This document shows positions 4,178 through 60,709 of a DNA stretch of 64,000 bases, one piece after another. Numbering within the stretch: the stretch's first letter is position 1; each line of letters opens with the position of its first letter. Below the pieces are notes generated by a model. That model worked only from the letters and a program-made list of their open reading frames with translations, made no database searches and was not told the DNA's origin. The stretch comes from Sycon ciliatum (taxonomy: Eukaryota; Porifera; Calcarea; Leucosolenida; Sycettidae): assembly GCF_964019385.1 (NCBI RefSeq), contig NC_088655.1, positions 20,754,371 through 20,818,370 of the forward strand, in the 5' to 3' direction. Made by a program: the position numbers and the translations under genes.

Positions 4178-4483
4178 AAAACCCATTTGATTCTGAAGAG
4201 TTTGTCTGCGATATCCAGCTATGGATTCAACGTCTTGATCCTGATCAATTCCGGAAGCTTGTCCAGCGCCGGGGTTTGATCAAAGACCGCGACCTCATTG
4301 ATGATCTTAAACTTATACAAGCACAACAGGGAGGTGCGGCCCACAATGCAAAAGTCGTTTCAATCCTTGATCCTGGTGAAATGGACACCTATCAGGGTCT
4401 GTGTAATGTCATTCTGAAAATGGGCTACACCGACCGCTATCATCAGATGATTCAACTCTTGCCACAAGACCGCGTTCAACAAG
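4178..4483 (+). CDS. Exon: CARD/death-fold-like domain (102 codons)
   Basis: The exon is bounded by a pyrimidine-rich acceptor (TTCTCTTTCTTCAG, ending 4177) and a GTGAGA donor at 4484, and is phase 1 at both ends. The translation is helical and charged, with the order ...DPDQFRKLVQRRGLI..., DLIDDLKLIQ, ...DTYQGLCNVILKMGYTDRYH..., MIQLL. This matches the spacing of hydrophobic positions in CARD and related death-fold domains, which form homotypic contacts in apoptosis and innate-immune signalling. The CARD assignment is inference from pattern; DEATH or DED is possible. It is the first exon I can support; the start codon and 5' exons are not identified. It splices in frame to the exon at 4816 (codon GTG across the junction). 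No nearby promoter is evident. Confidence 0.6.
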
Positions 4484-4815
4484 GTGAGAGGAACTCTCGT
4501 GAAGAAAATAGATTCTGCACCCATCCTCTCCCTGAATTTCATAACGAAATTGTTCATTGTGCAAATAGTGCACTGGTTATTACATCTCTATTTTCACCTA
4601 CAGATTATAGACAAAGACTGTTATTGCCCTTGATCAGTTGACTTGCATAGCTACTTTTTCCTGTCTTCCACCCCCTTATTTACTACAAACACCCACTCAC
4701 TGGAATCGTATCTTGTACAGTGTCCTGGGTCCCATAGTGCTTTCCTTGTAATCTGGTTTTTTCCTACCGCCCTTTGTGTTTTTCTTGTTTCTATCACTCT
4801 TTCCCCTATGTACAG

Positions 4816-5301
4816 TGACCCCAGCATTGTCCTCGAGTGTTGCTGCTAAGCAACCAGAGTCAGCCAACGCCATAGCAGCCAGAGCAGACCCACCTGTAAC
4901 CATGCCAACTGAAAAAGGCATGACAACAGCGGCTGCATCAGCAGGATATGCAGCGTATCACTCCAATGCAGGGACAAAGAGTTCATGGCCAGATGGACAG
5001 CAATTAGCACCACTGTGTCCACCGATGAAAAGCAGAACTGCAGCAGCAAGACCAGGAGCAGAAGCGGGAGAAGCAGCAGCAACAGCAGCAGTAGCTGGAG
5101 CAGCAGCAGGGGCAATGGCAGGAGTAGCAGAAACAGACGCAGTGGCTTCATCAGCAACTGTATTAACCCCTCAAGTGTCACTCCAGGCAAGGCTTCCAAT
5201 TGGAATTTCAGAACGAGTGCGTGGAGAAACAGCAGAGTCAGAACTAGGAGCAACAGCCACAGTATCAGCTGTACCAGCACTTCATCATTGCCATTATCCA
5301 G
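4816..5301 (+). CDS. Exon: Ala/Thr/Ser-rich linker (162 codons)
   Basis: The acceptor is TATGTACAG (ending 4815) and the donor GTGAGT at 5302; both borders are phase 1. The frame is rich in Ala, Thr, Ser, Gly and Glu, including poly-Ala-like runs (EAAATAAVAGAAAGAMAGVA), and has no recognisable domain. It is probably an extended, disordered linker. It joins in frame with the CARD-like exon upstream and with the first copy of the triplicated exon downstream. The opposite strand also has a long open frame (leucine-rich), but this is an artefact of GCA/CAG-rich composition. Confidence 0.6.
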
Positions 5302-5919
5302 GTGAGTTTTGCTTGCGATATAGTTGACATTCAAAGGGGACGCGGCAGGAAGCAACGTAAGAAGCTACGGGAAGTTGCGGGGATGGTGATGGTCGCAAAG
5401 TACTACATCGACAATGAATGCTAGAAACAGGAATGCAACCGTATTACCGTACACAGTGTGCTATTGATGTCTAATTAGAGATAGGAGTGTGTCAGACGAC
5501 GTCATAAAACAATTCCTATGGTTACCATTTGAATAATGAAAATCAATAATTTAAAAGGCATTGAGTCAACTGATCATGGGCCACAGCTTCATGCCTCACG
5601 ATGAGTTAGGTTGGCTATAGCAATAGCTGCTTCATGTCATACTGTACGGATGGCAAGGCCGTCTGCAGGTCACCCCAGCCATCCATACAGTTGCTACGTC
5701 CTGTCTCGTTAGCTTTATGGTGAATGAGAAATAGACTTGAAAACATTGGTATGTACTGAGGTGTCATGACACCGGCCATTCAAAATGGAAACCTTCTTTA
5801 ATAAAATCAATGGAATTTGATGTATGTGTGTTTGCACGCTTATACAAATGTAGCAACCTGAAATCACATAATCGGTTTGTGGATGCGGACATGTCTCTGT
5901 GCTGGTGTACTTGTGGCAG

Positions 5920-6366
5920 GTGCACAGCCACCTCTTGCTCTGCAGCTCGGTGCAGCCTTAGCTTGCTCCTCCCCTGGTAGATTACCCTCATCAATGTCAG
6001 GTCCTTCTCCTACGGCAGAGACTACAATTGGTCTTAGCCAGACCTGTTTGAGTGCATCCACCCAAGCCACTACAACACATCCCATTGCCAGTTCAGCTAA
6101 CACTAGCACTGGCAGGTGTGCTGCTGTTGGTAATGCTGCTGAGAGAGGAACTGCATTGCAGCAGAGTACACAGCCACCAGCGTCAGTCCACCTTGAAAAC
6201 ACGGCACAGCTGGCAGCAGCTGCAGTAGTAAGACATGCTTCTTCACTGCCTCTCGAGCCGCAGGCCAAGAGGGCCCTACTAAGCAATGTTGGTAGAGCAT
6301 TCACCGAAGAAATGTCCAGGCATATTGACTATGTGTCAGCTCCAAGTATGGCTCGTACCAGTCCAG
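5920..6366 (+). CDS. Exon: Ser/Thr/Ala-rich repeat exon, copy 1 (149 codons)
   Basis: The acceptor is ...TTGTGGCAG (ending 5919) and the donor GTAAGC at 6367. The exon is exactly 447 bp, phase 1 at both ends, so adding copies preserves the frame. The product is low-complexity (many Ala, Ser, Thr, Gln), starting AQPPLALQLGAALACSSPGR and ending RTSPG, with a more ordered stretch RALLSNVGRAFTEEMSRHID. No known domain is recognised. Copies 2 and 3 differ from it at only a few residues. It is probably a spacer between the death-fold and downstream domains. Confidence 0.65.
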
Positions 6367-6768
6367 GTAAGCGGTATGTCCTTGGAAGCTTGTATACCTG
6401 TTGTCTATAATGTGCATGTGCCGGTGGAAGTCATTGACCATGAAGCGGTTACTGTATGAAACATCATTTTGCACCGAGTTCAAACTTTGTATGTGGATCG
6501 CGTTTAGCATTACAGTCTGTTTCAAAAAGATTAGCAATCAAGTTTGGGTCTTAAAAAGTATGAAGATAAGGGAACTTTGGACAGCAAAGTACATAAAACG
6601 GCTTGTTAGGGCACGGCAAATTGTTCTGTGAAGGTTTCGGAACAATTGGACCAACCGTTAAGGAGTTAGTATTTCGGCCAGGTTTCTGGCCTTTTCCCAT
6701 GGTTTATAATTTGCCCTGGAAGCCAGTATCGATTTGTTATAAAAACCCACGATTTATCTCTTCCTTTT

Positions 6769-6840
6769 TGGCCTTGTGGTTATGAATGCTGTCTGCTGAC
6801 CATGAAGTTGTGAGTTCAAATCCCAACAAATCTTCAAGTC
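6769..6840 (+). repeat. tRNA-derived SINE head (unit 1)
   Basis: TGGCCTTGTGGTTATGAATGC resembles a tRNA A-box/D-arm, and GTGAGTTCAAATCCC (about 6810-6824) is a near-perfect B box. A T-rich tail follows. The same sequence recurs at about 9180-9250 in the second tandem unit and is deleted from the third. It is a SINE head rather than a functional tRNA gene. Confidence 0.55.
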
Positions 6841-7847
6841 AAACATTTTTTCTTCATTTTTTCATTATTTTGGTGATCACGCTGGTACAAGACAAAGAAG
6901 GTGGCTGCGCCAAACGACTTGTTGTTGGAGCTCGCGCTTCCTGCCGAACTGACTGACACTTGACTGGCTCACGCCATGTGAAGTTGTGAACACACGCAAC
7001 ACTGAAACCGTGTGAGTGAACACGGAAGTCATTGCGCTGTAGCTACGTGTTGTTGAATACACCGGCACATCGATCGATCGATTTTTGTTTGAGAATTATT
7101 TTAGTATTTGAAGATCGCCAATTTATTTGAATTTAGGAGTCAACGCCGTCTTCTATCAGCTTTCACAGGCGTCTGCTTTTCTTAAAATGTTGTCGAAGCC
7201 ACACGGATAGCTTTGCCACTTCAAGGCCTTGCGAATGAGTCTGTGTCGATGCTGTTTTCGCCACATCGTGAGAGTAAATTGCATCCGCGGCAACTCCAAG
7301 AATCTATTTGGTCACAAAACGGACGCATCCCGCTCGTCAAAATTTACCACACTTTCAACATGTCCTCTCTTGACTCCATATCGATGCGAGGAAGAACTCG
7401 TTTGTTGTATACCAGACGAACATGTACGAGTACCGAGGTCAGTGAGTTGTCATTTTTCATACTTTCGCGCGGAATATTTCTTTGAGTTCACAGTGAGTTT
7501 TTCCAGGCAGCGCTCGAGCGCTCATACGGTAAGACGCAAACTCCCTGGGCGATCGCCAGGATTGCTAATCTTTTTGAAACTAACTACAGGCTGTTGTATG
7601 GTTGCAGCTGAATTTGCATTTATCCCATTCAGCCCTACTGGGCCTTGCCTATGGTACTCTGCATAGAAATGCTAAAAAAGGCAAATAGAAAGTTCTAAAA
7701 CTCTAGGGTTCTGACAACTGGGGTCCTCAATTATTTTGGAAATGATTGCCAAGACTACCAACCACAGGGTGACAGACTCGATACAGTGCCCAAAAGAATA
7801 ACGCTTCACAATAGGGGACGCAAGTTTGCTCAAATTGCGTGAAAGGG

Positions 7848-7885
7848 GGAGGGGAGGGGAGGGGAGGGGAGGGGGAGGGGGAGGG
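7848..7885 (+). repeat. G-rich (GGGGA)n tract, end of unit 1
   Basis: Runs of four or more G separated by A fulfil the simple G-quadruplex pattern. The tract directly abuts the start of the next tandem unit at 7886. Confidence 0.85.
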
Positions 7886-8332
7886 AATTAGAGATAGGAG
7901 TGTGTCAGACGACGTCATAAAACAATTCCTATGGTTACCATTTGAATAATGAAAAACAAGAATTTAAAAGGCATTGAGTCAACTGATCATGGGCCACAGC
8001 TTTATACCTCACGATGAGTTAGGTTGGCTATTGCAATAGCTGCTGCATGTCATACTGTACGGATAGTAAGACCGTCTACAGGTCACCCCAGCCACCCATA
8101 CATTTTCTACGTCCTGTCTCGTTAGCTTTATGGTGAATGTGAAATAGACTTGAAAACATTGGTATGTACTGAGGTGTCATGACACCGGCCATTCAAAATG
8201 GAAACCTTCTTTAATAAAATCAATGGAATTTGATGTATGTGTGTTTGCACGCTTATACAAATGTAGCAACCTGAAATCACATAATCGGTTTGTGGATGCG
8301 GACATGTCTCTGTGCTGGTGTACTTGTGGCAG

Positions 8333-8779
8333 GTGCACAGCAACCTCTCGCTCTGCAGCTCGGTGCAGCCTTAGCTTGCTCCTCCCCTGGTAGATTACCA
8401 TCATCAATGTCAGGTCCTTCTACTACGGCAGAGACTACAATTGGTCTTAGCCAGACCTGTTTGAGTGCATCCACCCAAGCCACTACAACACATCCCATTG
8501 CCAGTTCAGCTAACACTAGCACTGGCAGGTGTGCTGCTGTTGGTAATGCTGCTGAGAGAGGAACTGCATTGCAGCAGAGTACACAGCCACCAGCGTCAGT
8601 CCACCTTGAAAACACAGCACAGCTGGCAGCAGCTGCAGTAGTAAGACATGCTTCTTCACTGCCTCTCGAGCCGCAGGCCAAGAGGGCCCTACTAAGCAAT
8701 GTTGGTAGAGCGTTCACCGAAGAAATGTCCAGGCATATTGACTATGTGTCAGCTCCAAGTATGGCTCATACCAGTCCAG
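8333..8779 (+). CDS. Exon: Ser/Thr/Ala-rich repeat exon, copy 2 (149 codons)
   Basis: This is the second copy of the 447-bp phase 1-1 exon, 2413 bp after the first, with intact CAG acceptor and GTAAGC donor. Differences from copy 1 include AQQPLAL for AQPPLAL, PSTTAET for PSPTAET and MAHTSPG for MARTSPG. The frame is fully open. Keeping frame, length and splice sites agrees with a coding role, though the duplication may be too young to show selection. Confidence 0.65.
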
Positions 8780-9179
8780 GTAAGCGGTATGTCCTTGGAA
8801 GCTTGTATACCTGTTGTCTATAATGTGCATGTGCCGGTGGAAGTCATTGACCATGAAGCGGTTACTGTATGAAACATCATTTTGCACCGAGTTCAAACTT
8901 TGTATGTGGATCACGTTTAGCATTACAGTCTGTTTCAAAAAGATTAGCAATCAAGTTTGGGTCTTAAAAAGTATGAAGATAAGGGAACTTTGGACAACAA
9001 AGTACATAAAACGGCTTGTTAGGGCACGGCAAATTGTTCTGTGAAGGTTTCGGAACAATTGGACCAACCGTTAAGGAGTTAGTATTTCGGCCAGGTTTCT
9101 GGCCTTTTCCCATGGTTTATAATTTGCCCTGGAAGCCAGTATCGATTTGTTATAAAAACCCACGATTTATCTCTTCCTT

Positions 9180-9250
9180 TTGGCCTTGTGGTTATGAATG
9201 CTGTCTGCTGACCATGAAGTTGTGAGTTCAAATCCCAACAAATCTTCAAG
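9180..9250 (+). repeat. tRNA-derived SINE head (unit 2)
   Basis: Second copy of the SINE at 6769, carried along by the tandem duplication. The B-box-like GAGTTCAAATCCC is retained. Confidence 0.5.
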
Positions 9251-10255
9251 TCAAACATTTTTTCTTCATTTTTTCATTGTTTTGGTGATCACGCTGGTAC
9301 AAGACAAAGAAGGTGGCTGCGCCAAACGACTTGTTGTTGGAGCTCGCGCCTCCTGCCGAACTGACTGACACTTGACTGGCTCACGCCATGTGAAGTTGTG
9401 AACACACGCAACACTGAAACCGTGTGAGTGAACATGGAAGTCATTGCGCTGTAGCTACGTGTTGTTGAATACACCGGCACATCGATGGATCGATTTTTGT
9501 TTGAGAATTATTTTAGTATTTGAAGATCGCCAATTTATTTGAATTTAGGAGTCAACGCCGTCTTCTATCAGCTTTTACAGGCGTCTGCTTTTCTTAAAAT
9601 GTCGTCGAAGCCACACGGATAGCTTTGCCACTTCAAGGCCTTGCGAATGAGTCTGTGTCGATGCTGTTTTCGCCACATCGTGAGAGTAAATTGCATCCGC
9701 GGCAACTCCAAGAATCTATTTGGTCACAAAACGGACGCATCCCGCTCGTCAAAATTTACCACACTTTCAACATGTCCTCTCTTGACTCCATATCGATGCG
9801 AGGAAGAACTCGTTTGTTGTATACCAGACGAACATGTACGAGTACCGAGGTCAGTGAGTTGTCATTTTTCATACTTTCGCGCGGAATATTTCTTTGAGTT
9901 CACAGTGAGTTTTTCCAGGCAGCGCTCGAGCGCTCATACGGTAAGACTCAAACTCCCTGGGCGATCGCCAGGATTGCTAATCTTTTTGAAACTGACTATA
10001 GGCTGTTGTATGGTTGCAGCTGAATTTGCATTTATCCCATTCAGCCCTACTGGGCTTTGCCTATGGTACTCTGCATAGAAATGCTAAAAAAGGCAAATAG
10101 AAAGTTCTAAACCTCTAGGGTTCTGACAACTGGGGTCCTCAATTATTTTGGAAATGATTGCCAAGACTACCAACCACAGGGTGACAGAATCGATACAGTG
10201 CCCAAAAGAATAACGCTTCACAATAGGGGACGCAAGTTTGCTCAAATTGCGTGAA

Positions 10256-10297
10256 AGGGGGGGGGGGGGGGAGGGGAGGGGAGGGGGAGGGGGAGGG
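10256..10297 (+). repeat. G-rich tract, end of unit 2
   Basis: A run of more than ten G followed by GGGGA repeats. Same position in the unit as 7848-7885, but expanded and rearranged, as expected for an unstable tract. Confidence 0.85.
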
Positions 10298-10744
10298 AAT
10301 TAGAGATAGGAGTGTGTCAGACGACGTCATAAAACAATTCTTATGGTTACCATTTGAATAATGAAAAACAAGAATTTAAAAGGCATTGAGTCAACTGATC
10401 ATGGGCCACAGCTTTATACCTCACGATGAGTTAGGTTGGCTATTGCAATAGCTGCTGCATGTCATACTGTACGGATAGTAAGACCGTCTACAGGTCACCC
10501 CAGCCACCCATACATTTTCTACGTCCTGTCTCGTTAGCTTTATGGTGAATGTGAAATAGACTTGAAAACATTGGTATGTACTGAGGTGTCATGACACCGG
10601 CCATTCAAAATGGAAACCTTCTTTAATAAAATCAATGGAATTTGATGTATGTGTGTTTGCATGCTTATACAAATGTAGCAACCTGAAATCACATAATCGG
10701 TTTGTGGATGCGGACATGTCTCTGTGCTGGTGTACTTGTGGCAG

Positions 10745-11191
10745 GTGCACAGCAACCTCTCGCTCTGCAGCTCGGTGCAGCCTTAGCTTGCTCCTCCCCT
10801 GGTAGATTACCATCATCAATGTCAGGTCCTTCTACTACGGCAGAGACTACAATTGGTCTTAGCCAGACCTGTTTGAGTGCCTCCACCCAAGCCACTACAA
10901 CACATCCCATTGCCAGTTCAGCTAACACTAGCACTGGCAGGTGTGCTGCTGTTGGTAATGCTGCTGAGAGAGGAACTGCATTGCAGCAGAGTACACAGCC
11001 ACAAGCGTCAGTCCACCTTGAAAACACGGCACAGCTGGCAGCAGCTGCAGTAGTAAGACATGCTTCTTCACTGCCTCTCGAGCCGCAAGCCAAGAGGGCC
11101 CTACTAAGCAATGTTGGTAGAGCATTCACCGAAGAAATGTCCAGGCATATTGACTATGTGTCAGCTCCAAGTATGGCTCGTACCAGTCCAG
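10745..11191 (+). CDS. Exon: Ser/Thr/Ala-rich repeat exon, copy 3 (149 codons)
   Basis: Third copy, with intact acceptor (ending 10744) and donor GTAAGC at 11192, phase 1-1. It shares AQQPLAL and PSTTAET with copy 2 but reads RTSPG like copy 1, and uniquely has QPQASVHL for QPPASVHL. The mosaic of variants suggests unequal crossing-over or gene conversion. It splices in frame to the exon at 13393 (codon GAT across the junction). Confidence 0.65.
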
Positions 11192-11290
11192 GTAAGCGGT
11201 ATGTCCTTGGAAGCTTGTATACCTGTTATCTATAATGTGGATGTGCTAGTGGAAGTCGTTGACCATGAAGCGGTAACTGTATGAAACATA

Positions 11291-13392: not shown

Positions 13393-13500
13393 ATTCCCAG
13401 GCCTCTCTGCTGCAGAAGTCTCAGTTCCTCCTGGACAGCCCCGAAATGTCTGAAGGTGACTCAGGGTTTTCCGGCTCTGCTGCTAGCTCAGACACCGAAG
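13393..13500 (+). CDS. Exon: short Ser/Asp-rich segment (36 codons)
   Basis: The acceptor TTCTGTGTGTTCCAG ends at 13392 and the donor GTAAGG starts at 13501. The exon is 108 bp, phase 1-1, and encodes DSQASLLQKSQFLLDSPEMS then EGDSGFSGSAASSDTE. The DSGxxxS pattern resembles the phosphodegron class recognised by F-box proteins of the beta-TrCP type, but this is a short motif and could be chance. It continues in frame from copy 3 of the triplicated exon and into the exon at 15529. Confidence 0.55.
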
Positions 13501-15528: not shown

Positions 15529-15717
15529 AATGGACAGAAGATGATCTGCGCAATGCTCGAGTCACGGTTTTTATGGACAGCAAACTCAGGACATCTGCTG
15601 ACTGTGATGGAATTATCTTGGACAGTTTATCTAAGCAGCACTTCAATGAGACTAATATCAGAATCAAATCTACGAGCAGAAGAAGTGATCCTGCGCTCAC
15701 ACGTGTTGAAGGAAAAG
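15529..15717 (+). CDS. Exon: 63-codon segment, no known domain
   Basis: The acceptor is ATGTGTATGACCAG (ending 15528), with a somewhat weak GTTTGT donor at 15718. In the phase-1 frame the whole 189 bp is open, giving WTEDDLRNARVTVFMDSKLR then a Ser/Arg-rich tail ending TRVEGKG; the other two frames are not needed. Phase is 1 at both ends, matching its neighbours at 13393 and 17621. I do not recognise a domain. It may form the N-terminal extension of the TRADD-N-like segment encoded by the next exon. Confidence 0.55.
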
Positions 15718-17620: not shown

Positions 17621-17923
17621 GAGGAGATATTAGGACATTGGTCAAAATCATCATCAACGGACAACCTGACGACTACACTAAACATAGGATCCGAAGGGAA
17701 GTGATTGAGGACCTGGAGGACCTTACCTTCTCCAAGAATCAAATTCAGGTCATCTACAAAGGCGACTGGGATTCCATCCAGGTGGTACTGCTGCTACCAA
17801 TGAGGACACTGGGTCATCTACTCTTCCTTGCAGTACACTATCCTGGACTGCTGCGAGGCCTGGATATACTTCAAATCATTGACATCTCCTCATTGACCAT
17901 AATTGACTTTCGAGAGATAACAG
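17621..17923 (+). CDS. Exon: TRADD-N-like domain (101 codons)
   Basis: The acceptor is ATGTGTCCTGCAG (ending 17620) and the donor GTATTG at 17924; the exon is 303 bp, phase 1-1. The product alternates beta strands and helices: [20 protein letters not shown], then [49 protein letters not shown]. The order 'strand, acidic helix, strand, xxSIxVxLxLP, helix, GLxIL' fits the TRADD-N-like fold used as an effector or adaptor module in immune receptors. This is a pattern judgement without a profile search. It follows the 15529 exon in frame and lies between death-fold and ankyrin modules, which suits an immune adaptor. Confidence 0.5.
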
Positions 17924-24515: not shown

Positions 24516-24854
24516 GCAACTCTAGCAGCTCCAATATGGCCTTAGACGAGTTGCTAGATGATGATGGAGAGCTGTCAGAGGACTATGACGATGACGAGGA
24601 TGAGGATGTTGATGTTGAGGATCTACCTCAGGGCTATGACAAGGATAAGTATGGATATGAGAGCGAGGTAAATGAGATGGAGTTTTCGAGGCGCGCTGAC
24701 ACAGCTGATGCTGCTGAACGCCACATTTCGCAGCAGGAATATGATCAGCTGAATGACCGTAGTATGGATTTCCAGTCGGTGCTGGCAGCCATAATGGGGT
24801 CACACAGGAAAGACCAGAATTTCCTGACAGCAATCAGCGCTTCCATTGCTAACA
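24516..24854 (+). CDS. Exon: acidic segment (113 codons)
   Basis: A strong acceptor (TTGTACCCTTAG, ending 24515) and donor GTAAGT at 24855 bound 339 bp, phase 1-1. The product begins GNSSSSNMALDELLDDDGEL and has a long Asp/Glu run (EDYDDDEDEDVDVEDLPQGY), followed by a helical, charged stretch (ISQQEYDQLNDRSMDFQSVL) ending ISASIAN. No catalytic domain is recognised; it is an acidic linker followed by a possible interaction helix. It joins in frame to the exon at 32592 (codon AAA across the junction). Confidence 0.6.
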
Positions 24855-31832: not shown

Positions 31833-32111
31833 AGTTGCACCTTCTCCCCCCCCCCCCCTCTGTATAGAGGTGACATAACTCGCATCATTTTATTTTTTGG
31901 CGCTACACTCTGCGTAACGCCATTCACAGAGCACAATGCGCGCTACCTTCTGTTGCTTCTCCTCCGTGATGTGCTAGTTGCGCCTTTTCTCTCTCTCTCT
32001 GTCCCCCCCCCCCCTTCTGCACACTAGGTGACATAATTCGCATATTTTTTGGCGCTACACTCTGCGTATATACTGCTCTTGTGTGGCTTCCACGGTATTC
32101 ATTGCTATTAC

Positions 32112-32591: not shown

Positions 32592-32698
32592 AAATGCTCA
32601 GCTCGAACACAGCCAGACTGGTGGCACTCACGCACAGACGGAAGAAGGAACTTGCAGCACCTCAAGACAGGCCGGTATTTTTGACATCGCCGGAGCGA
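32592..32698 (+). CDS. Exon: basic linker that changes phase 1 to 0
   Basis: The acceptor is TTGTCTATTTATCAG (ending 32591) and the donor a consensus GTGAGT at 32699. It opens in phase 1 (matching the exon ending at 24854) and closes in phase 0 (matching 33593). The product is MLSSNTARLVALTHRRKKEL then AAPQDRPVFLTSPER. It is only 107 bp, so the call rests on the splice sites and on the phase fit at both ends. Confidence 0.5.
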
Positions 32699-33592: not shown

Positions 33593-33781
33593 ATTGAGAG
33601 GCTGACAACAGAGCTGAAGAAAACCACATTAGAGCAGCAGCCTGTAGCAGAAAAGGAACAGATCAGCCCGGTAGAGAAGCCCATCAGCTCGGTAGAGATG
33701 CCCATCAGCCCCAGAAAGAGACACAGGCCCCCAACACAGATACCCTGGAGGACTAGCCGAACACCAAACGAACATTCCGAG
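33593..33781 (+). CDS. Exon: coiled-coil and Pro-rich linker (63 codons)
   Basis: The acceptor is TTGGCTTCTTACAG (ending 33592) and the donor GTGGGT at 33782; phase 0-0. It starts with a short helix with coiled-coil character (IERLTTELKKTTLEQQ), then two copies of a PISxVExPIS-type motif (EQISPVEKPISSVEMPIS) and a basic Pro/Arg stretch (PRKRHRPPTQIPW). It continues in frame from the 32592 exon. The next ankyrin exons are also 0-0, so it fits as the join between the N-terminal part and the ankyrin array. Confidence 0.55.
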
Positions 33782-38030: not shown

Positions 38031-38368
38031 CTGCACTTGCATATGTTTACATCAAGCCGCATTCATACCGCATCATGGGGGTTGATCCAATTTGTACAAC
38101 GACCCAGTGATCCGACAATATGAAATAAACTCATAACTTGTTTACCCGGGCACTGCCCGTAACTTCGAAATGTCCGTTACCCCGAATCACATGCATTTTG
38201 ACGGGGAATGGCCATAAATATGGCATATGTCGCCACTATTTCCACAAAAATTGCCAAAAGAGTAGTAACATTTCCACTGAAACTCTCCCAAAGTTTGCCC
38301 AGTAGCCTGAAATGCCCGTAACTTTGGGGTCTGGATAACCGAGGTATAAGTGTACATGTATGTCTGAA

Positions 38369-38447
38369 CGGTGCCGCCAATGGTGGTAACCTGGATGTGT
38401 GTCAAGCCCTGATCGCTGGAGGCGCCGAGTGTAACATCAAGAATGAG
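38369..38447 (+). pseudogene. Ankyrin-repeat exon, 5'-deleted copy
   Basis: The 3' part of the exon (AANGGNLDVCQALIAGGAEC then NIKNE) with its GTAAAG donor is present. The acceptor and the first third (the GDTPLH part) have been lost by a deletion that fuses intron sequence (TGTATGTCTG) straight to the exon. It cannot be spliced as a normal repeat. Confidence 0.8.
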
Positions 38448-41446: not shown

Positions 41447-41545
41447 CTTGGCGACACTCCGTTGCACGATGCCGCCAGGTTATGTAGAATCGAGATGTGT
41501 AAAGCGCTGCTCGCTGCAGGCGCCGACTGTGAAATGAAGAATGAG
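41447..41545 (+). CDS. Exon: one ankyrin repeat (33 codons), copy A
   Basis: The acceptor GCCTGTGCTTCCAG ends at 41446 and the donor is GTATAG at 41546. 99 bp, phase 0-0. The product LGDTPLHDAARLCRIEMCKA then LLAAGADCEMKNE has the ankyrin signature (GxTPLHxAA, LLxxGAD). One exon encodes exactly one repeat, so repeat number can change without breaking frame. A LINE ends immediately upstream of the acceptor. The donor (GTATAG) is weaker than the GTAAAG of its paralogues. Confidence 0.85.
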
Positions 41546-43083: not shown

Positions 43084-43182
43084 CGTGGCGACACTCCGTT
43101 GCACGATGCCGCCTGGAGAGGTAACCTCGAGGTGTGTCAAGCGCTGATCGCTGGAGGGGCCGACTGTAAAATCAAGAATGAG
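43084..43182 (+). CDS. Exon: one ankyrin repeat, copy B
   Basis: The acceptor GTGTGCATCCAG ends at 43083 and the donor is GTAAAG at 43183. 99 bp, phase 0-0. The product RGDTPLHDAAWRGNLEVCQA then LIAGGADCKIKNE fits the ankyrin consensus, with canonical loop residues (GDTPLH). Its nearest relatives are the exons at 46577 and 47751. Ankyrin stacks bind protein partners. Confidence 0.88.
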
Positions 43183-46576: not shown

Positions 46577-46676
46577 GCGTGGCGACACTCCGTTGCACGA
46601 TGCCGTCAGGAGAGATAACCTCGAGGTGTGTCAAGCGCTGATCGCTGGAGGGGCCGACTGTAACATCAAGAATGAG
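46577..46676 (+). pseudogene. Ankyrin-repeat exon, frameshifted copy
   Basis: Same exon family, but 100 bp long. One extra T (ATAACCTTCGAGG against GTAACCTCGAGG in copy B) shifts the frame after the first half and leads to a stop. The acceptor reads ATCTAG instead of ATCCAG. If spliced in, it would break the downstream array, so it is probably skipped or dead, unless the extra T is a sequencing error. Confidence 0.8.
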
Positions 46677-47750: not shown

Positions 47751-47849
47751 CATGGCGACACTCCGTTGCATGATGCCGCCAGTATAGGTAAACTCGATGT
47801 GTGTCAAGCGCTGCTCGCTGCAGGGGCGGACTGCAACATCAAGAATGAG
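47751..47849 (+). CDS. Exon: one ankyrin repeat, copy C
   Basis: The acceptor GTGTGCATCCAG ends at 47750 and the donor is GTAAAG at 47850. 99 bp, phase 0-0. The product HGDTPLHDAASIGKLDVCQA then LLAAGADCNIKNE is a complete consensus ankyrin repeat. Downstream, the intron carries the 125-bp MITE and then the BEL/Pao element. Confidence 0.88.
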
Positions 47850-48063: not shown

Positions 48064-48210
48064 ATCATCTGTTCATTGACCTTTATCCGAGTGGAATCCT
48101 GTCCTAACCCGAAAATTCTCATCTACTGCCTCCTCACCCCATCAATGTGTGCAAGTCTTTGGCCCAGTTTGTTGTGTCTATTGTTCTCAAAATCGGTCAC
48201 GCTCCCATTG

Positions 48211-48662
48211 TGTGGAATATTGCATGCTTGTCAATAGTGCATGCTTGTTAGAGATTGCATGCTTGTCAGATATTGCATGCTTGTTAGATAATGCATGCTT
48301 GTTAGAGATTGCATGCTTGTTAGATATTGCATGAATAAGAGTATTGTCACAAACTAATGGTTCGCACCAAGCATACATACAAGCATACAAGCAATCGATT
48401 ATACAGTCTTCTTTCTTCTTTCTATCGTGTCTTCTAAAGTATTTTACTTACCTTTTGCGCCATGGTACGCCTACGACGTTCCCATGGTCTTCACGTACGA
48501 CATACGGTTTTCTAGCCCTTTTTCCTGGAGCTTGTCTCCTCGTGTCGTTTCGGTTTTTGGTTTTACGTTGTCTAATGATAAGCAACAGTTTGTTTGAGTC
48601 TAAGAGAACCCAAGATGCGCTCGCGTTGAGCCAAAGCAGCCTTACAAAGATCATTTTGTAAA
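48211..48662 (+). repeat. 5' LTR of BEL/Pao element (452 bp)
   Basis: TGTGGAATATTGCATG... to ...TCATTTTGTAA. By direct reading it is identical to the 3' LTR (no difference seen in 452 bp), which implies a very recent insertion. Its first part holds six 18-19-bp repeats of TGCATGCTTGTTAGAT (about 48220-48330), a possible enhancer-like array. Confidence 0.95.
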
Positions 48663-48710
48663 TTGGTCCTTCGAGCCGGATCGCCGGATTCGAACCAGAG
48701 AAGACTAGAG

Positions 48711-51700: not shown

Positions 51701-54700
51701 CTGTGGCGGCTCAGCTAGTATCGACATTCTACTCGGCGCTGATGTTTATTGGCAGATCGTCACGGGCGACATCGTTCGTGTAGATGATGGGCCAACTGCT
51801 CTCGATACTCGCCTCGGGTGGGTTCTGTCCGGACCAACAGGCAGGTGTAATTCAGGCATCATCTCCACTAACGTCGCAACCAATCACGCTTGCGATGTCG
51901 AACCATCTACCGTGCAAGATCCAGACGGCGCTTTGGTCCAGTTACTCCAGAAGTTCTGGCAGCTTGAATCCATTGGCATCTTGCCTAATGAACCAGACAC
52001 TCTGCAGCTGTTCCAACAGACCATCCGCTACGATGGGCAGAGGTACACGGTCAGGTTGCCATGGAGGGAGGATCATCGCGCGCTTCCAGACAATTACAGT
52101 CTGTCCGAGAAACGGCTGCAGTCAACACTCAAGAAACTGCAGAAGTCACCAGAAATTCTGAAGGAATACAATGCAGTAATTCAAGAGCAACTTCAGAAGG
52201 GCATCATCGAGGAGGTGCCAACTACAGAGCACGACGTGGTGGGCGAAGTACATTACCTGCCTCACCATCCTGTCATTCGGCAGGACAAGACCACTACGAA
52301 GGTTCGTGTGGTGTACGATGCCTCAGCCAAGGTGAAGACGCATCCGTCCCTGAACGACTGCATCCACACGGGACCACCGCTGCTCGAGCAGATCACCAGC
52401 ATACTGCTCCGGTTCCGAACGCATGCGGTAGCCTTCACCGCAGACATAGAGAAGGCGTTCTTGATGGTTGGGATTGAGGCAGCCGACCGCGACGTCCTAC
52501 GCTTCCTCTGGGTCGACAATCCCACAAGCGCTCAGCCGGTACTCAAGACGTACCGATTCACGCGTGTTGTCTTCGGTGTATCCGCTAGCCCATTCTTATT
52601 GAACGCTACCCTGCAACACCATCTCGCCAAGTTTGATCCCGAGTTCACTACGAAGCTGCTACAGAGTCTGTACGTGGACGATGTTGCGAGTGGCGGCAAC
52701 AGCAATGCCAATGCGTTGGAATCGTTCAACCGTGCCAAGAATCACCTTGCAACAGGCGGATTCAACTTGCGCAAGTTTGTCTCCAACTCCGCTGAGTTGA
52801 ATGAGATCGTCAATGGTACCGCAGCGACACCCCTGTCGACTAACGGTCTGCCTACTGTCGCCGTGGACAACGACTCGTATGCCAAGACCATGTTGAACGG
52901 CTCATCCGCAGCCAACACCAAAGTCCTGGGCATTCCATGGGACAGGACATCTGACCGTCTCACGTTCAGCGTCGACGAAGTGTTCAGCACGACCAAGGTC
53001 GACTCGCCAGTAACTAAGCGCCAAGTCCTATCGGCGTCAGCCAAGATGTATGACCCCCTCGGACTCCTGGCACCTATCACCATCACCCTCAAGGTATTTC
53101 ACCAACAACTATGCCAGTTGAAGATGGGCTGGGATGACCCATTGGAGGGAGAGTGTCTTGGCAAGTGGCAGACGATGATACGGGAATTGAAGGCCATGCC
53201 ACCAGTCTCATTGCCACGGCACTACGCAACAGACGCGAACGGCAACATCACATGTGTCGAGCTACACGGTTTCTGTGACGCGTCCGAGAGAGCCTATGCA
53301 GCAGCCATCTACATTGTGTTTACGACGGAGGTGGGCACTTCAGTACAGCTAGTCGCGGCAAAGGGTCGTGTTGCGCCGCTGAAGCAACAGACCATTCCCC
53401 GCCTCGAGTTGCTTTCAGCACTGGTATTGGCTCGCCTGATGGCATCCGTCTCCTCAACGTTGGCGGAGCTGAAGATTGATCAGATTCACTGCTGGTCAGA
53501 CTCCCAAGTGGCACTGGCATGGATAGCTGGAGTGGAGCAAACATGGAAGCAGTTTGTGGAGAGCCGGGTTACAGAGATCCGACGTCTCGTTCCGACGTCC
53601 TGCTGGAGCTACTGCCCAACAGCTTCGAACCCAGCCGACCTGCCGTCGCGAGGAGTGAAGCCCAGCGAGCTCACCAGTACCATCTGGTACACTGGTCCGA
53701 AGTGGCTACACGAGCCACAACCCCGAGCAGAAGTCGACAGCGGCTCCGCAGCATCGCAGTGTGAAGAAGTCGAGAGAGAGCGGAAGGCAACACCTACCAC
53801 GGTCATGGCAGTCGGCTGCACCTCGCACAGCAGCATCGAGAAGGTCATCGATGTGAATCGATTCAGCTCACTGAGCAAACTGCTGCGTGTGACCGCTTAC
53901 GTCCTGAAGGTCACAGACCTGTTGAAGCGTCGCAGCAAGACCACACATCTGTCTGCGAAGGATCTCCACAGAGCACATACACTGTGGATGGTCAACGCTC
54001 AACAGGATCTGTCCAAGGACAAGAAGTACCCTGGTTGGTGTAAGGAGTTCGGCCTTTTCACCGACGAGAGTGGCATTCTACGGTGTGGTGGACGTCTGCA
54101 AAACGCCGGACTGTCGCATGATCAAACCCATCCGGTTTTGCTGAACGCGAACCACCCGTTGACACGTCTAGCCGTCCTGCAGGCGCATGACACGGTATGC
54201 CACAATGGTGTCAAGGAGACACTAACCGAGCTACGATCCCGTTACTGGATCATTCGTGGTCGGCAATTCGTACGAAAGATTGTCGGCCAATGCACCGTTT
54301 GTCGACGTCTCGAGTCGAAGCCGTACGCTCCGGAAGATTCACCTCCCCTGCCAGAATTCAGGACCAAGGTGGACTTCCCCTTTAGTTACGTCGGTGTGGA
54401 CTTCGCAGGGCCACTGTTTGTCAGGGAAGGAGCAGACACCAAGAAGGTATATATCGCGCTCTTCACCTGCGCCGTCAGCCGAGCGCTCCATCTAGATCTT
54501 GTGCCTGACCTATCAGCGGAAACGTTCCTCCGTTGTTTCAAGCGGTTTACGGCACGATTTGGCATCCCTCGGCACGTTACCTCTGACAACGCCAAGACCT
54601 TCAAGTCAGCGGCTAAGTCACTAGTGGGTTTGTTCGGTCTGCCCGAAGTCACTGACTATCTAACAGCACACGGCATGGAATGGTCGTTCAACTTGGAGAA

Positions 54701-55472
54701 GGCTCCATGGTGGGGTGGATTTTATGAACGGATGGTCCGATGTGTAAAACGCTGCTTGAGGAAGATTCTCGGCCAGGCACGCGTCACGTACGAAGAACTC
54801 CTCACCTTCTTGCTCGAGGTTGAAGCAGTCCTCAACAGTCGCCCTCTGACATTTGTGTCAACTGAAGATGTCGAGGAGCCGTTAACACCGTCCCATCTAT
54901 TGTATGGTCGGCGCGTTCTGTCATTTCCGACAGTGTGTCCTGATGACGTCGATGTCGCGTCAATTCAACGAGATGAGCTTCTACACCGACTCACCCACCT
55001 CAACACGCTCCTGGAGCATTTCTGGTGCAGATGGAGAAGTGAGTATCTACTCGAACTCCGAAAAGCTCACAGGCGAGGCAATCAGCACGACCAAGGAGCA
55101 ACAGTGTGCGTCGGTGATGTAGTAGTCGTGCACGACGACAATGAGAAGCGTGGCCTGTGGAGACTAGCGTTAGTCGAAGACCTCATCCGAGGCAAGGACA
55201 ACAAGGTCCGAGGAGCGGTGATAAAATGCTCTTCCCGCGGAGGACGAGCATCCACCATGCGTCGCCCGGTACAGCGACTGTACCCTGTGGAGGTAGCAAG
55301 ACCTGCACCAGCCGCCGACGTTCTCGACGAACAATCGCAGGCCCACGTTGCGGACACAGCCTCCGCTGTCCAGCAATCTGGTGCGCACCCCGGCGCCATG
55401 CGCCCGAAGAGAGATGCTGCCCGGTCAGCTGATAAGGCCAGACAGCAACTGATTAATGCCGGCTCCTTATAG
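48711..55472 (+). CDS. BEL/Pao Gag-Pol polyprotein
   Basis: A single frame of 2253 codons from the ATG at 48711 (the frame is open from the primer-binding site, but this is the first ATG). Order: Ser/Thr-rich N-terminus; Gag core of the DUF1759 type from about residue 553 (KIKIPTFDGDKKLYDTWR); three zinc knuckles at about 768-830; aspartic protease near residue 903, reading MLDGGS; reverse transcriptase with FTADIEKAF and YVDD (residues 1321-1324); RNase H (FCDAS, Asp about 1523); integrase with a catalytic triad at about D1897, D1959 and E2006; and a C-terminal basic DUF5641-like region. No envelope gene. The polyprotein is presumably cut by its own protease. No stop or frameshift is seen, so it may be active. 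It adds a 7.4-kb frame to an intron of the host gene in the sense direction. Confidence 0.95.
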   Translation: MADSIGPQQKIAKAKAKTEYTNVRRGLLVSIVSETVSVEEIKYGLLMLENRMNSVMEVVSELADIFCKNPTYLESLAKETAELEVSYTEAVTQASTTLANISMSRYNSAHTSEITGLRYTRHPERVQAYLESISATDKIRTAQEQLQWSTSSMQELDTSSTSRSVQASGQSEPSTSGSTVHIPASDANTAATELVFVGQDSACTNVVMSMPDVSGIPSAATGATGPAARDLDRNNVPAEQRKQQQPGAGVGVSTDLRLAVSSSDTGTNPRQSSVSSPYDVGRQQITQNTTSTSTPVSSAGYTNTTRTNDNRTFTITAATPTLQYGTTTTPTQQHSLSSARTLAASGTSSRVNATKFAQGFGTATDPASAYGGSAASASASFGSQSHLAPASASTIPYGSRLPLDVLGVPQLQAAQTGQSQTPQWTQSDTAASQWPPPCSTTPNLAGSTQWSPVLPAAVSSNNAAFGVQSLQTQYNVSGLYPSPALPPPVNAVFGGSPAQNGSALYPGQQSASNYGPYGGTPNGYGLTGPVPGFTPGPSHASQGNPPSDVYRHLGKIKIPTFDGDKKLYDTWRTSFNVCVDQQPLSPELKLLQLRQYLSGPPLKTVETYGYSAAAYAAALQRLDQKYGGEKRKTAVHMSALQDMPAIRERGTAKQLERFADLVQVAKINLIDAGRQNELSYGTFCTQLQQKLSQDLLTAYHRWRCDNNIVESVDSLLQWLVREADFRTEAEETLQSVSHSVAATRLMSKPAKSDISTAAALTVTSSSVECVFCGSGHESSQCSSITDIKRRKELIRKNGRCFICLKKNHMARDCKSKLRCSKCEHRHHTSICEPKSSEQPGTGAKTSSPPSRQGGSGKWSKPVFSSTTAATVSDSGAVFLQTAQTSVVSPQRPDRKVPVRVMLDGGSQRSYATSSVLTQLDVRRSGQERVVINAFGGEQPSPSTLRDVVELDIQCVDGNRIRVNCIVVPSVCAPVQNQHTADVVTAYESLQNLSLADNCGGSASIDILLGADVYWQIVTGDIVRVDDGPTALDTRLGWVLSGPTGRCNSGIISTNVATNHACDVEPSTVQDPDGALVQLLQKFWQLESIGILPNEPDTLQLFQQTIRYDGQRYTVRLPWREDHRALPDNYSLSEKRLQSTLKKLQKSPEILKEYNAVIQEQLQKGIIEEVPTTEHDVVGEVHYLPHHPVIRQDKTTTKVRVVYDASAKVKTHPSLNDCIHTGPPLLEQITSILLRFRTHAVAFTADIEKAFLMVGIEAADRDVLRFLWVDNPTSAQPVLKTYRFTRVVFGVSASPFLLNATLQHHLAKFDPEFTTKLLQSLYVDDVASGGNSNANALESFNRAKNHLATGGFNLRKFVSNSAELNEIVNGTAATPLSTNGLPTVAVDNDSYAKTMLNGSSAANTKVLGIPWDRTSDRLTFSVDEVFSTTKVDSPVTKRQVLSASAKMYDPLGLLAPITITLKVFHQQLCQLKMGWDDPLEGECLGKWQTMIRELKAMPPVSLPRHYATDANGNITCVELHGFCDASERAYAAAIYIVFTTEVGTSVQLVAAKGRVAPLKQQTIPRLELLSALVLARLMASVSSTLAELKIDQIHCWSDSQVALAWIAGVEQTWKQFVESRVTEIRRLVPTSCWSYCPTASNPADLPSRGVKPSELTSTIWYTGPKWLHEPQPRAEVDSGSAASQCEEVERERKATPTTVMAVGCTSHSSIEKVIDVNRFSSLSKLLRVTAYVLKVTDLLKRRSKTTHLSAKDLHRAHTLWMVNAQQDLSKDKKYPGWCKEFGLFTDESGILRCGGRLQNAGLSHDQTHPVLLNANHPLTRLAVLQAHDTVCHNGVKETLTELRSRYWIIRGRQFVRKIVGQCTVCRRLESKPYAPEDSPPLPEFRTKVDFPFSYVGVDFAGPLFVREGADTKKVYIALFTCAVSRALHLDLVPDLSAETFLRCFKRFTARFGIPRHVTSDNAKTFKSAAKSLVGLFGLPEVTDYLTAHGMEWSFNLEKAPWWGGFYERMVRCVKRCLRKILGQARVTYEELLTFLLEVEAVLNSRPLTFVSTEDVEEPLTPSHLLYGRRVLSFPTVCPDDVDVASIQRDELLHRLTHLNTLLEHFWCRWRSEYLLELRKAHRRGNQHDQGATVCVGDVVVVHDDNEKRGLWRLALVEDLIRGKDNKVRGAVIKCSSRGGRASTMRRPVQRLYPVEVARPAPAADVLDEQSQAHVADTASAVQQSGAHPGAMRPKRDAARSADKARQQLINAGSL

Positions 55473-55610
55473 AGCTGCAGCAGCAATATTCTGTGATTAG
55501 ATGAGAGCATCACGTTGCACCATGCTCTGTACTCTAGTAGCATCACGCTGTTGTAGGAACGAGTCGGGTACATGTAGTACACTAATTTCTAAGCTCTCAT
55601 CTGGAGGGAG

Positions 55611-56062
55611 TGTGGAATATTGCATGCTTGTCAATAGTGCATGCTTGTTAGAGATTGCATGCTTGTCAGATATTGCATGCTTGTTAGATAATGCATGCTT
55701 GTTAGAGATTGCATGCTTGTTAGATATTGCATGAATAAGAGTATTGTCACAAACTAATGGTTCGCACCAAGCATACATACAAGCATACAAGCAATCGATT
55801 ATACAGTCTTCTTTCTTCTTTCTATCGTGTCTTCTAAAGTATTTTACTTACCTTTTGCGCCATGGTACGCCTACGACGTTCCCATGGTCTTCACGTACGA
55901 CATACGGTTTTCTAGCCCTTTTTCCTGGAGCTTGTCTCCTCGTGTCGTTTCGGTTTTTGGTTTTACGTTGTCTAATGATAAGCAACAGTTTGTTTGAGTC
56001 TAAGAGAACCCAAGATGCGCTCGCGTTGAGCCAAAGCAGCCTTACAAAGATCATTTTGTAAA
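55611..56062 (+). repeat. 3' LTR of BEL/Pao element (452 bp)
   Basis: Identical to 48211-48662, including the six 18-19-bp repeats (about 55620-55730). Followed by the CATTG duplication. Confidence 0.95.
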
Positions 56063-56124
56063 CATTGCTTGGTATAGTGTAGAGAGACGCCATCATGCCA
56101 GAATCTTTCACGTCAGCATGTCCC

Positions 56125-57713: not shown

Positions 57714-57790
57714 TTTGTATAACAACACACTGATAAGAAAATATGACATACATATATCTGTACACTAATGACAATCATGCAATGAAAATA

Positions 57791-57991
57791 CTGTCTTGGA
57801 CATGGAAATCCAGGAGAACGACCAGGACCGGCGCCCTCAGTGTACAGAACGTTACATGCAGTGCACATGTTGATCCGATATGACCAGCGCACTGCTTGTG
57901 TGTACCGTAGACAACGCATACCGAGCCAAGGCTACGTGGACAGTGCCCAGGGGCCGCTAGACGTGCGACCGGATTTCCATGTCGACGGCAG
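57791..57991. mobile_element. 201-bp MITE with TA target duplication, copy 1
   Basis: Ends CTGTCTTGGACATGGAAATC and GGATTTCCATGTCGACGGCAG, flanked by TA (57789-57790 and 57992-57993). Paralogous modules have the undisturbed site with a single TA (42941-42942, 46435-46436 and 47608-47609). It shares its terminal repeats with the elements at 1-529 and 2112-2741. Confidence 0.92.
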
Positions 57992-58055
57992 TACCAGACA
58001 AGTAGAACAATATGAACAAACTGTTGAATTCCACTCTGCATTGTTTTGCTTTGAT

Positions 58056-58754
58056 TTACTGCAAAGAGAAAGGCTCGGCAGGGATCCCGTCGTTAACGCT
58101 GGAGCCGGCAGGGCTGGACAGGTGGTGTATCAAGCGTAGCTTGCCATTCTTTTTCGGAACAGCGCCAATGCCAGAGCAGTACATAAATGGGAATGGGGGC
58201 GAGTCAAATGGGCCAGCCGTGTAGCCGGCGTTGCAGGAAGCGGTGAGCTGTGCAGACACAAATGCAGAGTGCTGGAATGCTGATGAGAGGTTGGACGAGT
58301 GCTGGTTAGTTATGCGGTTGCCGGTAAAGCCAATGTCAAAGCCGCAGCGGAGGCCGTTAATAACATACGAAGCCAATGAACTGTCAGGGTGGTTACGGAG
58401 CAGTGATTCGAAGCGAGAAACAGAGAGGGGTGTGTGGACAGCAGGACATGCGCTTGTGAAATCAGTAGAACGTGAAGTGCAGGGAGAAATATGTACAATC
58501 GCGGGAGCTGCAGCCAAAGCAGCAGAGTTACTGGCGCCTACCGCACTTAGATCCGTTGTGGTCCTTGGACCCGCAGCGGTTGCAGACATGGGCGTACTTG
58601 CACGTGCTGAGACTGCAACGCCCAGCGTTGAAGTTCCGGCAGATCGGTTGACCATTAGACACCGTACGGACTCCATTGAAGGCTTGCTGGTTGTTACGTT
58701 GCGGACGAAAGGGACACTGGCCGCCTCCGGGATGGATGAGGCGGCAGGACTCAC
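58056..58754 (-). pseudogene. DIRS-type reverse transcriptase, N-terminal fragment
   Basis: The minus strand gives RFESLLRNHPDSSLASYVIN, GLRCGFDIGFTG, AGPFDSPPFPFMYCSGIGAV and PKKNGKLRLIHHLSSPAGSS, the start of the polymerase of DIRS-like (tyrosine-recombinase) retrotransposons. It overlaps the Gag frame, as is common in that group. The sequence stops at about 58050, where it meets ankyrin-module intron sequence (...TTTGCTTTGATTTA), before the catalytic motifs. The copy is therefore inactive. Confidence 0.75.
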
Positions 58755-59619
58755 ATGTGGGCCTTGATCGGCTAGTCACGGACATTTGCCACAGATTTAT
58801 GTCGATGACGTCAAAGCGCTTGCCTGGCTGAGCAGAAATGGCAGAGCGAAACTGGGTGTCGTACGACAGCCAAGCCTCCGGATAGTATTGCCTGTTGGCT
58901 GCAACTATGGTGGCTTGGTAGGAGAGCATCTCCTGCAGGCGGGACGGGTTGGCAGAACACACGACGTTCATGAAGAGAGTCCATGCCTCCAGCCATGTCG
59001 GCAAGTCGTGGACGCGTCGACGAACGGGCTGCGCCGCTCCACCTTCCACCACCTCCAGAGACTGGCCGCCACTGCTGAACTGCAGGTGAAGCTGGCGTGG
59101 GGCAGAATACGAGGTGGCGATAGTATCGGGCAGCAGCTGGGTGAAATCTACAAAGTCACCCTTCAATATTTTCTCTCGTATAGTCTGGGGAACGGAGAGA
59201 TTACCAGCGTTGGAAGACTCCGCCGAAGGTTGAGTTCCAGCGGATCCAGGGGCAGTGATGGTGGCCAGCATTGGAGCGATCGCCTCCGACAAGGCAACGG
59301 TGACGGCGGAATGTACTTCCTGCCGCACAAACTGGCGCAAATCGTCATTACTGCTCCGGTCCGGGATCTGGGGAGTCGGAGAAGCTGCTGCAGCACTCTC
59401 CAGATCCTGCTCTTGCTCCTGCTCGTGCTCCTGCCGCGAGGATGGCGTGGCCGACGGAGATCGAGGTTCCCGTGCCGCCGAGCTCGACGTGTCCTGGATA
59501 CTGAGCAGCAAACGGGCAAGAAGCTGGGGCTTTGTTCCGCTCGAATTCAGCCCACGGCCTTCCAGCTCGGCCCGCAAGTCCGACACGTTCATACGGCGTG
59601 CTTCAGAGGTAGACAACAT
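58528..59619 (-). CDS. DIRS-type Gag-like protein with SAP and zinc fingers
   Basis: 363 codons. The N-terminus is a SAP motif (MNVSDLRAELEGRGL, then TKPQLLARLLLS), followed by a Gln/Glu/Ser-rich stretch. A central domain (LPTWLEAWTLFMNVVCSANP, REKILKGDFVDFTQLLP) precedes a CCCH finger (CRNFNAGRCSLSTCKYAH) and a CX2CX4HX4C knuckle (CNRCGSKDHNGSKC). This arrangement is known from ORF1 of DIRS-like elements of animals, which packages the RNA. The frame is complete although the downstream polymerase is truncated. The long + strand frames across it are antisense artefacts. Confidence 0.75.
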   Translation of the reverse strand: MLSTSEARRMNVSDLRAELEGRGLNSSGTKPQLLARLLLSIQDTSSSAAREPRSPSATPSSRQEHEQEQEQDLESAAAASPTPQIPDRSSNDDLRQFVRQEVHSAVTVALSEAIAPMLATITAPGSAGTQPSAESSNAGNLSVPQTIREKILKGDFVDFTQLLPDTIATSYSAPRQLHLQFSSGGQSLEVVEGGAAQPVRRRVHDLPTWLEAWTLFMNVVCSANPSRLQEMLSYQATIVAANRQYYPEAWLSYDTQFRSAISAQPGKRFDVIDINLWQMSVTSRSRPTCESCRLIHPGGGQCPFRPQRNNQQAFNGVRTVSNGQPICRNFNAGRCSLSTCKYAHVCNRCGSKDHNGSKCGRRQ

Positions 59620-59688
59620 GTTTGTCGTGCAGTAAACGGCTGCGAGGAATCAACAAGGAGTCTGAATAATTAATTCTATTCTCAACGA

Positions 59689-59982
59689 ACAAATTCCGGT
59701 TGCTGCTCAGTGACACTGCAAAGGAAAAGCCCATAAGTCGATGCGCGCCTGTTCCCTGTCATAAACCGGGCCGTACACTTCTCCCAGCTTGCTCTTCAGG
59801 CCTGGCCAGTCGGAAAACAGCGTGTTTGCCTCCTGAGAGGCGATAAACCAAAGACGAGCGTTGCCCTCCAGAAAACTCGCCGCGTAGCTCAAGCGCTCCG
59901 CCGCGTTGTCCAGCTGCAGGGACTTCATGGCGAGTTCGATGAAACAAATTCCGGTTGCTGCTCAGTGACACTGCAAAGGAAA
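59689..59982. repeat. 39-bp direct repeat, 255 bp apart
   Basis: ACAAATTCCGGTTGCTGCTC...AAAGGAAA occurs at 59689-59727 and at 59944-59982 without difference. It brackets the Gag fragment on the minus strand. Confidence 0.9.
59707..59970 (-). pseudogene. Gag capsid fragment of an LTR-type retroelement
   Basis: A minus frame reads FIELAMKSLQLDNAAERLSY, AASFLEGNARLWF, DWPGLKSKLGEVYGPVY and ARIDLWAFPLQ. The 'A..LEG.A..W......W...K..L' pattern is that of retrotransposon capsid (Gag) proteins of the Ty3/gypsy type. It is only about 75-85 residues and has no neighbouring protease or polymerase, so it is an isolated fragment between 39-bp direct repeats. Confidence 0.6.
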
Positions 59983-59984
59983 GC

Positions 59985-60230
59985 GCAAGCCAAAGTCAGC
60001 GCAGCAAGAGCTACCCAAGGCGATTTGGGCGCGCATGCGCAGCAGTTGAGTGCACGTGTAAAGCCAGCTCGATCGCAGCTAGCATGAGATAGAGAGCAGC
60101 GCATCGGTCTTATCGCTAACTAGGGTTAGCCCAAAAGCTAACCCAACATCTGTACGTTGAGTGTGACTGCAAATCAAAAGAACTTGTCTCTGAGTGTAGA
60201 ATAGCACTACCAGGGCACGTTGGAGCGGCT
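59985..60230. other. Stretch of unknown origin beside DIRS remnant
   Basis: GC-rich stretch with GCGCGCATGCGCAG; no frame or repeat was recognised. It may be the 5' terminal part of the DIRS-like element, whose right border was not found. Confidence 0.35.
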
Positions 60231-60263
60231 TTTGACACTAATTGCAATTATGCAATGTAAACA

Positions 60264-60467
60264 CTGTCGTCGACATGGAAATCCAATTGGATTACTGGAA
60301 ACGGCGCTCTCATTGCGTACAGAACGTTGCATGCAGTGCACATGTTGATCCGATATGACCAGTGCACTGTATGTGTTGTACCGTAGACTACGCGTACCGA
60401 ATCAAGGCTGCATGGACAGCGCCCAGGGGCCGCTAGACGTGCGACCGGATTTCCATGTCCACGACAG
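60264..60467. mobile_element. 204-bp MITE of the TA family, copy 2
   Basis: Ends CTGTCGTCGACATGGAAATC and GGATTTCCATGTCCACGACAG. The right flank is TA (60468-60469) while the left flank is CA (60262-60263), probably a later mutation of TA. It occupies the same position in its ankyrin module as copy 1 (57791), so the two may descend from one insertion followed by module duplication. Confidence 0.9.
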
Positions 60468-60610
60468 TAGCAGACAAGTAGTACCATATGAACAAACTGT
60501 TGAATTCCACTCTGCATTGTTTTGCTTTGATTTACAATTGTGATTGTGATCTAAAATCAGACTTATTGAGAAAGTTTTAGTGTACTGTTGTTTCTTGCCT
60601 GTGCTTCCAG

Positions 60611-60709
60611 CATGGTGACACTCCGTTGCACCATGCCGCCATGAGAGGTAGAATCAAGGTGTGTGAAGCGCTTCTGGCTGCAGGGGCAGACTGCAACATC
60701 AGAGATGGG
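60611..60709 (+). CDS. Exon: one ankyrin repeat, copy D
   Basis: The acceptor GCCTGTGCTTCCAG ends at 60610 and the donor is GTAAAG at 60710. 99 bp, phase 0-0. HGDTPLHHAAMRGRIKVCEA then LLAAGADCNIRDG, a good ankyrin repeat and the most diverged of the set. It shows the array continues beyond the BEL insertion. No stop codon or 3' exon was found after it, so the gene end is outside the window or unrecognised. Confidence 0.85.

Follow-up and report, generated by a model that had tools for sequence, protein, structure and literature searches.

An exon chain joining CARD-like, TRADD-N-like and ankyrin parts in a calcareous-sponge-like genome

Proteins that combine death-like domains, a TRADD-N domain and ankyrin repeats are known from sponges and cnidarians. 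According to PMC8195603, the sponge Amphimedon has 357 TRADD-N proteins of the NCOA6 clade. Most of their architectural types consist of one to three N-terminal death-like domains, TRADD-N and a variable C-terminus, most commonly ankyrin repeats or SH3 plus leucine-rich repeats. Cnidarians have DED-TRADD-N proteins with ankyrin repeats, which are said to be related to Fem1. A switch model for TRADD-N, adopted below, was proposed in the same source. Here, we describe a probable gene of this already known architecture class in a 64,000-nucleotide stretch of Sycon ciliatum DNA (contig NC_088655.1; the window). The initial annotation knew of no described protein with exactly this arrangement of parts, a remark that the Amphimedon and cnidarian proteins overtake.

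Exon chain and gene model

The exons of the model and one decayed exon are as follows (all on the + strand):
3517..3523, +, probable first coding exon (ATGGATG, donor GTGAGT), phase 0-1
4178..4483, +, CARD-like (death-fold) exon, phase 1-1
4816..5301, +, alanine-rich low-complexity exon, phase 1-1
5920..6366, +, serine/threonine/alanine (S/T/A)-rich exon, copy 1 of 3, phase 1-1
8333..8779, +, S/T/A-rich exon, tandem copy 2 of 3
10745..11191, +, S/T/A-rich exon, tandem copy 3 of 3
13393..13500, +, short acidic/serine exon, phase 1-1
15529..15717, +, exon preceding TRADD-N, phase 1-1, donor AAG|GTTTGT
17621..17923, +, TRADD-N-like exon, phase 1-1
24516..24854, +, acidic-then-helical exon, phase 1-1
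32592..32698, +, linker exon, phase 1-0
33593..33781, +, putative coiled-coil-like exon (label of the initial annotation), phase 0-0
38352..38447, +, decayed ankyrin exon, start lost
41447..41545, +, ankyrin exon, one repeat, phase 0-0
43084..43182, +, ankyrin exon, one repeat, phase 0-0
46578..46676, +, ankyrin exon, one repeat, phase 0-0
47751..47849, +, ankyrin exon, one repeat, phase 0-0
60611..60709, +, ankyrin exon, one repeat, phase 0-0; the array runs on past the window

A phase-coherent exon chain over 4178..60709 had been proposed, and the splice sites bear this out: all 11 named exon starts and the five intact ankyrin exons of the window have an AG acceptor and a fitting donor. The phases of the 17-exon model chain into 1290 stop-free codons, and phase 1-0 at 32592, followed by 0-0, leads into the ankyrin array. 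Such agreement over more than ten exons had been called unlikely by chance. The phases do agree, but fewer of the agreements are independent than were counted, because the three S/T/A exons are recent duplicates. A unit of ~2.4 kb containing this exon is triplicated at 5467-11289, and each of the three paralogues read has the exon only once.

The 3' exons before the ankyrin array are retained in paralogue B. There, exon 24516 keeps its acceptor, donor and frame despite gaps of 15, 6 and 51 bases, and exon 32592 keeps its splice sites with one 6-base gap. For exon 33593, the acceptor and exon start are present, followed by a 126-base open exon up to AAG|GTGAGT (a phase-0 donor).

For the 5' half, two intronless copies on contig 1 (L046 and L047) contain the CARD-like, low-complexity, S/T/A, pre-TRADD-N and TRADD-N-like parts in that order, with the exon-15529 part joined directly to the TRADD-N-like part. 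They are 95.7% alike over the aligned stretch and therefore probably stem from one event that was then duplicated. L047 starts with ATG GCA GGC AAT. Both copies change frame past the CARD-like part, lack some sequence where the low-complexity part meets the S/T/A part, and have a different 14-residue piece at the place of exon 13393 and a TAG in the TRADD-N part, inside which they end. These processed copies support a 5' half that is spliced in the modelled order; they are silent on the 3' half.

CARD-like and TRADD-N-like exons

The best 150 of 258 candidates were scored in the genome search with the CARD-like exon. It has at least 150 relatives, all with E 3.2e-10 or better, and only one of the 150 contains stops. 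Among the matches listed, big clusters lie at 11.3-12.8 Mb of contig 1 (11.26-12.83 Mb in finer coordinates) and 37.2-38.5 Mb of contig 5 (37.15-38.48 Mb), with no TRADD-N-like match listed near either. Two matches, at 24605692 (-) of contig 7 and 12825609 (+) of contig 1, sit in long open frames (2027 and 1011 codons, respectively) and are therefore possibly intron-poor genes of other architecture.

Within 25 copies (35-86% identity to that of the window), P2, F8, W15, R25, L43, H55, N56, Y71 and M90 are invariant. The top five matches of the 25-copy profile among solved-structure sequences were all the Apaf-1 CARD, at a non-significant E of about 1, and two hydrolases matched at the same level. 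Pfam CARD was matched in two of the 25 copies (best E 0.045); seven other families were each matched in one copy (E 0.058-0.18), namely the bacterial death-like domain bDLD2 and six unrelated families. The predicted model has six main helices plus a seventh, short one, and its predicted local distance difference test score (pLDDT) of 54.5 is too weak to decide. Foldseek gave eight weak matches: two NLRP3 PYD chains, a design on the Apaf-1 template (1cy5) and five unrelated chains. On this weak profile evidence, exon 4178 is called CARD-like. A database protein, scpid103667, matches a CARD-like exon of contig 5 (L064) with 92% identity across 100 residues. Identifiers of this style are those of Sycon ciliatum, a calcareous sponge (PMC6526912), which makes a calcareous sponge the probable source of the genome. 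The protein comes from eukprot, which we take to be a collection of predicted protein sets, and the match hints that such a domain is expressed.

The genome search with the TRADD-N-like exon gave 20 matches: 12 of 77-100% identity (counting that of the window, the 11 others being intact and at 77-97%), two of 72%, which are the intronless contig-1 copies, and six of 27-40%. When 36 of the 150 CARD rows, picked to include those on TRADD-N-bearing stretches, were compared with these loci, 16 of the 20 copies had a same-strand CARD-like exon no more than 30 kb upstream. The four copies without one are at 20344364, 19840681 and 19891288 of contig 14 and at 24177315 of contig 8.

The predicted model of the TRADD-N-like exon has strands and helices in the order beta-alpha-beta-beta-alpha-beta (an RRM/ferredoxin-like fold) at moderate confidence (pLDDT 69.5). 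Ser51 at the beta2-beta3 turn is present in all 11 aligned and all 12 close copies; at this site, the two contig-1 pseudo-copies, which are in neither alignment, show a gap and a stop. The published TRADD-N motif is a serine in this turn preceded by a tiny residue, usually Gly (PMC8195603). Here, the preceding residue is Asp in 11 and Glu in one of the close copies, and T, T, G, N, K and K in the six distant ones.

No Pfam family exceeded its cut-off for the 12 close and four distant copies searched, profile A3 of the exon found no match among PDB sequences, and Foldseek placed TRADD below Nup54 and other ferredoxin-like folds. These results would suit wrong domain labels, with exon 17621 encoding another ferredoxin-like domain and the protein acting as a nuclear or cytoskeletal scaffold rather than an immune or death adaptor. 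We consider this distinctly unlikely, as the topology and the turn serine fit TRADD-N, and an N-terminal death-fold-like domain with ankyrins is the published sponge pattern (PMC8195603). Exon 17621 is taken as a putative TRADD-N-type domain, on weak profile evidence.

The gene looks like a member of a fast-evolving family, and the comparisons suggest two old CARD classes joined to one recently homogenised body. A recently amplified family that is largely relaxed or decaying, with no working receptor, is very unlikely in view of several observations. All 12 close TRADD-N-like copies have an open frame and an AG acceptor, and their donors are GT in ten and GC in two (L028 and L031); the mean ratio of non-synonymous to synonymous differences (pN/pS) is 0.56. 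All 20 exon indels keep the frame, the corresponding rate ratio (dN/dS) is 0.22-0.32 in the old CARD comparisons, and the framework sites of the ankyrin exons are fixed.

Some TRADD-N-like copies form divergent head-to-head pairs: 20736312-/20771993+ and 21226491-/21245191+ on contig 14, 19430350-/19452222+ on contig 13 and 9839501-/9933444+ on contig 1. In the window, an assembly gap of 200 N at 1912-2111 lies between the two head-to-head genes. Some plant paired immune receptor genes are likewise arranged head-to-head.

Ankyrin exon arrays and other elements

Pfam Ank was over its cut-off in all three stretches submitted (32-37 bits vs 21.1). In the genome search, with the best 150 of 425 candidates scored, the ankyrin query had at least 126 matches at E 1e-6. 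All 82 listed ankyrin exons of contig 14 (at least 61% identity) lie 3' of a TRADD-N-like exon on the same strand; strand randomisation gave a mean of 59.5 and a maximum of 73 in 2000 trials. They fall into eight groups, of which one consists of a single exon, and eight is a fairer count than 82 because the members of an array are copies of one another. Four of the 12 contig-14 TRADD-N copies have no ankyrin exon among the matches listed. Outside this count, nine more matches of at least 64% identity are listed on other contigs: one at 19396556 of contig 13 has a same-strand TRADD-N copy on its 5' side, and eight (64-85%; contigs 7, 1 and 260) have no TRADD-N copy listed nearby. The group of the window gene comprises at least 27 listed exons and extends 343 kb from its TRADD-N exon, a stretch in which a second gene start would escape the count if it had no TRADD-N exon.

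The eight matches with no TRADD-N copy listed nearby, the 7.7 kb between the last paralogue-supported exons (32592 and 33593) and the first ankyrin exon, and the processed copies, which never span both parts, would agree with a split into two genes, where a CARD-TRADD-N adaptor stops before ~41 kb and is followed by an ankyrin gene of its own or a field of decaying ankyrin exons. This is unlikely given that the eight contig-14 groups (one a single exon) share order and strand, that the phases 1-0 and then 0-0 continue into the array, and that paralogue B retains exon 33593 with a phase-0 donor. The single gene and part order put forward initially are supported by the paralogues, the processed copies for the 5' half, the upstream CARD-like exons and the contig-14 ankyrin exons. 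The chain, its order, the family, the arrays and the site pattern of the ankyrin exons are sequence observations; one transcript would probably run through the ankyrin part.

While the framework sites of the ankyrin exons are fixed, the variable positions resemble a binding surface. Any subset of these exons keeps the frame, as each intact exon is one repeat of phase 0-0. The array might thus be a diversity-generating exon library, in which alternative splicing or recombination among near-identical exons yields many recognition surfaces with a death-fold output. This idea is rather doubtful. If true, a sponge would have its own version of Dscam-like exon arrays, acting inside the cell, and with splicing in alternative subsets a single gene near the animal base would supply a large repertoire of receptors.

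Several further elements were seen in the window. An apparently young retrotransposon lies in an intron at 48210-56062 (+), with a 2280-codon open frame (two pieces searched; matches to RVT_1, integrase core and DUF5641) between direct repeats (48210-48662 and 55610-56062) showing no difference over 453 bases; we take it to be of the BEL/Pao type. Pieces of a frame at 29454-31889 (-) match GIY-YIG over and RVT_1 under the cut-off, and the piece searched of a frame at 61873-63495 (-) had no match; both are presumably Penelope-like. An open frame with a SAP domain lies at 58528-59649 (-).

Proposed function and comparison with known systems

With a probability of roughly two in three, the locus is one gene with CARD-like part, linkers, TRADD-N-like part, acidic region, probable coiled coil and ankyrin solenoid, whose product is most likely an intracellular sensor-adaptor. 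The ankyrin surface would bind a microbial or damaged-self ligand. Upon binding, the TRADD-N domain, which would hold the protein inactive, would release it, and the freed CARD-like domain could assemble with partner death-fold proteins, leading to an immune or cell-death output. The innate-immune or cell-death reading given initially is supported to this extent, from sequence.

TRADD-N/death-fold expansions now reach a calcareous-sponge-like genome. The suggested route of diversification has two strands: recognition repeats gained as single symmetric exons that vary at binding-surface-like positions, and two old CARD classes on one recently homogenised body. In the literature, no description was found of single-repeat ankyrin exon arrays in such genes, of such ankyrin variation at positions resembling a binding surface, or of a recent body that carries either of two old CARD classes.

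The likeness to Apaf-1 covers its CARD alone, the best (non-significant) solved-structure sequence match of the 25-copy profile. Vertebrate TRADD is not known to have ankyrins. The window gene shares with it the TRADD-N-type topology, the serine and the coupling to a death-fold domain. The order differs: TRADD-N comes first and the Death domain is C-terminal in TRADD (PMC8195603), whereas the death-fold-like part is N-terminal here, a comparison that stops short of the far C-terminus.

The cnidarian DED-TRADD-N-ankyrin proteins share the order death-fold, TRADD-N, ankyrin, but have a DED where the window gene is, on weak evidence, CARD-like (PMC8195603). The Amphimedon proteins share the order of death-like part, TRADD-N and variable C-terminus or ankyrins, as well as a lineage-specific sponge expansion; for both groups, the comparison covers the order of domains. 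Unlike Amphimedon with its 357 TRADD-N proteins (PMC8195603), this genome has 20 TRADD-N-like exon copies and at least 150 CARD-like exons. The window gene may further differ in its long alanine/serine/threonine-rich linkers between the CARD-like and TRADD-N-like parts and in its ankyrins arrayed as one repeat per exon.
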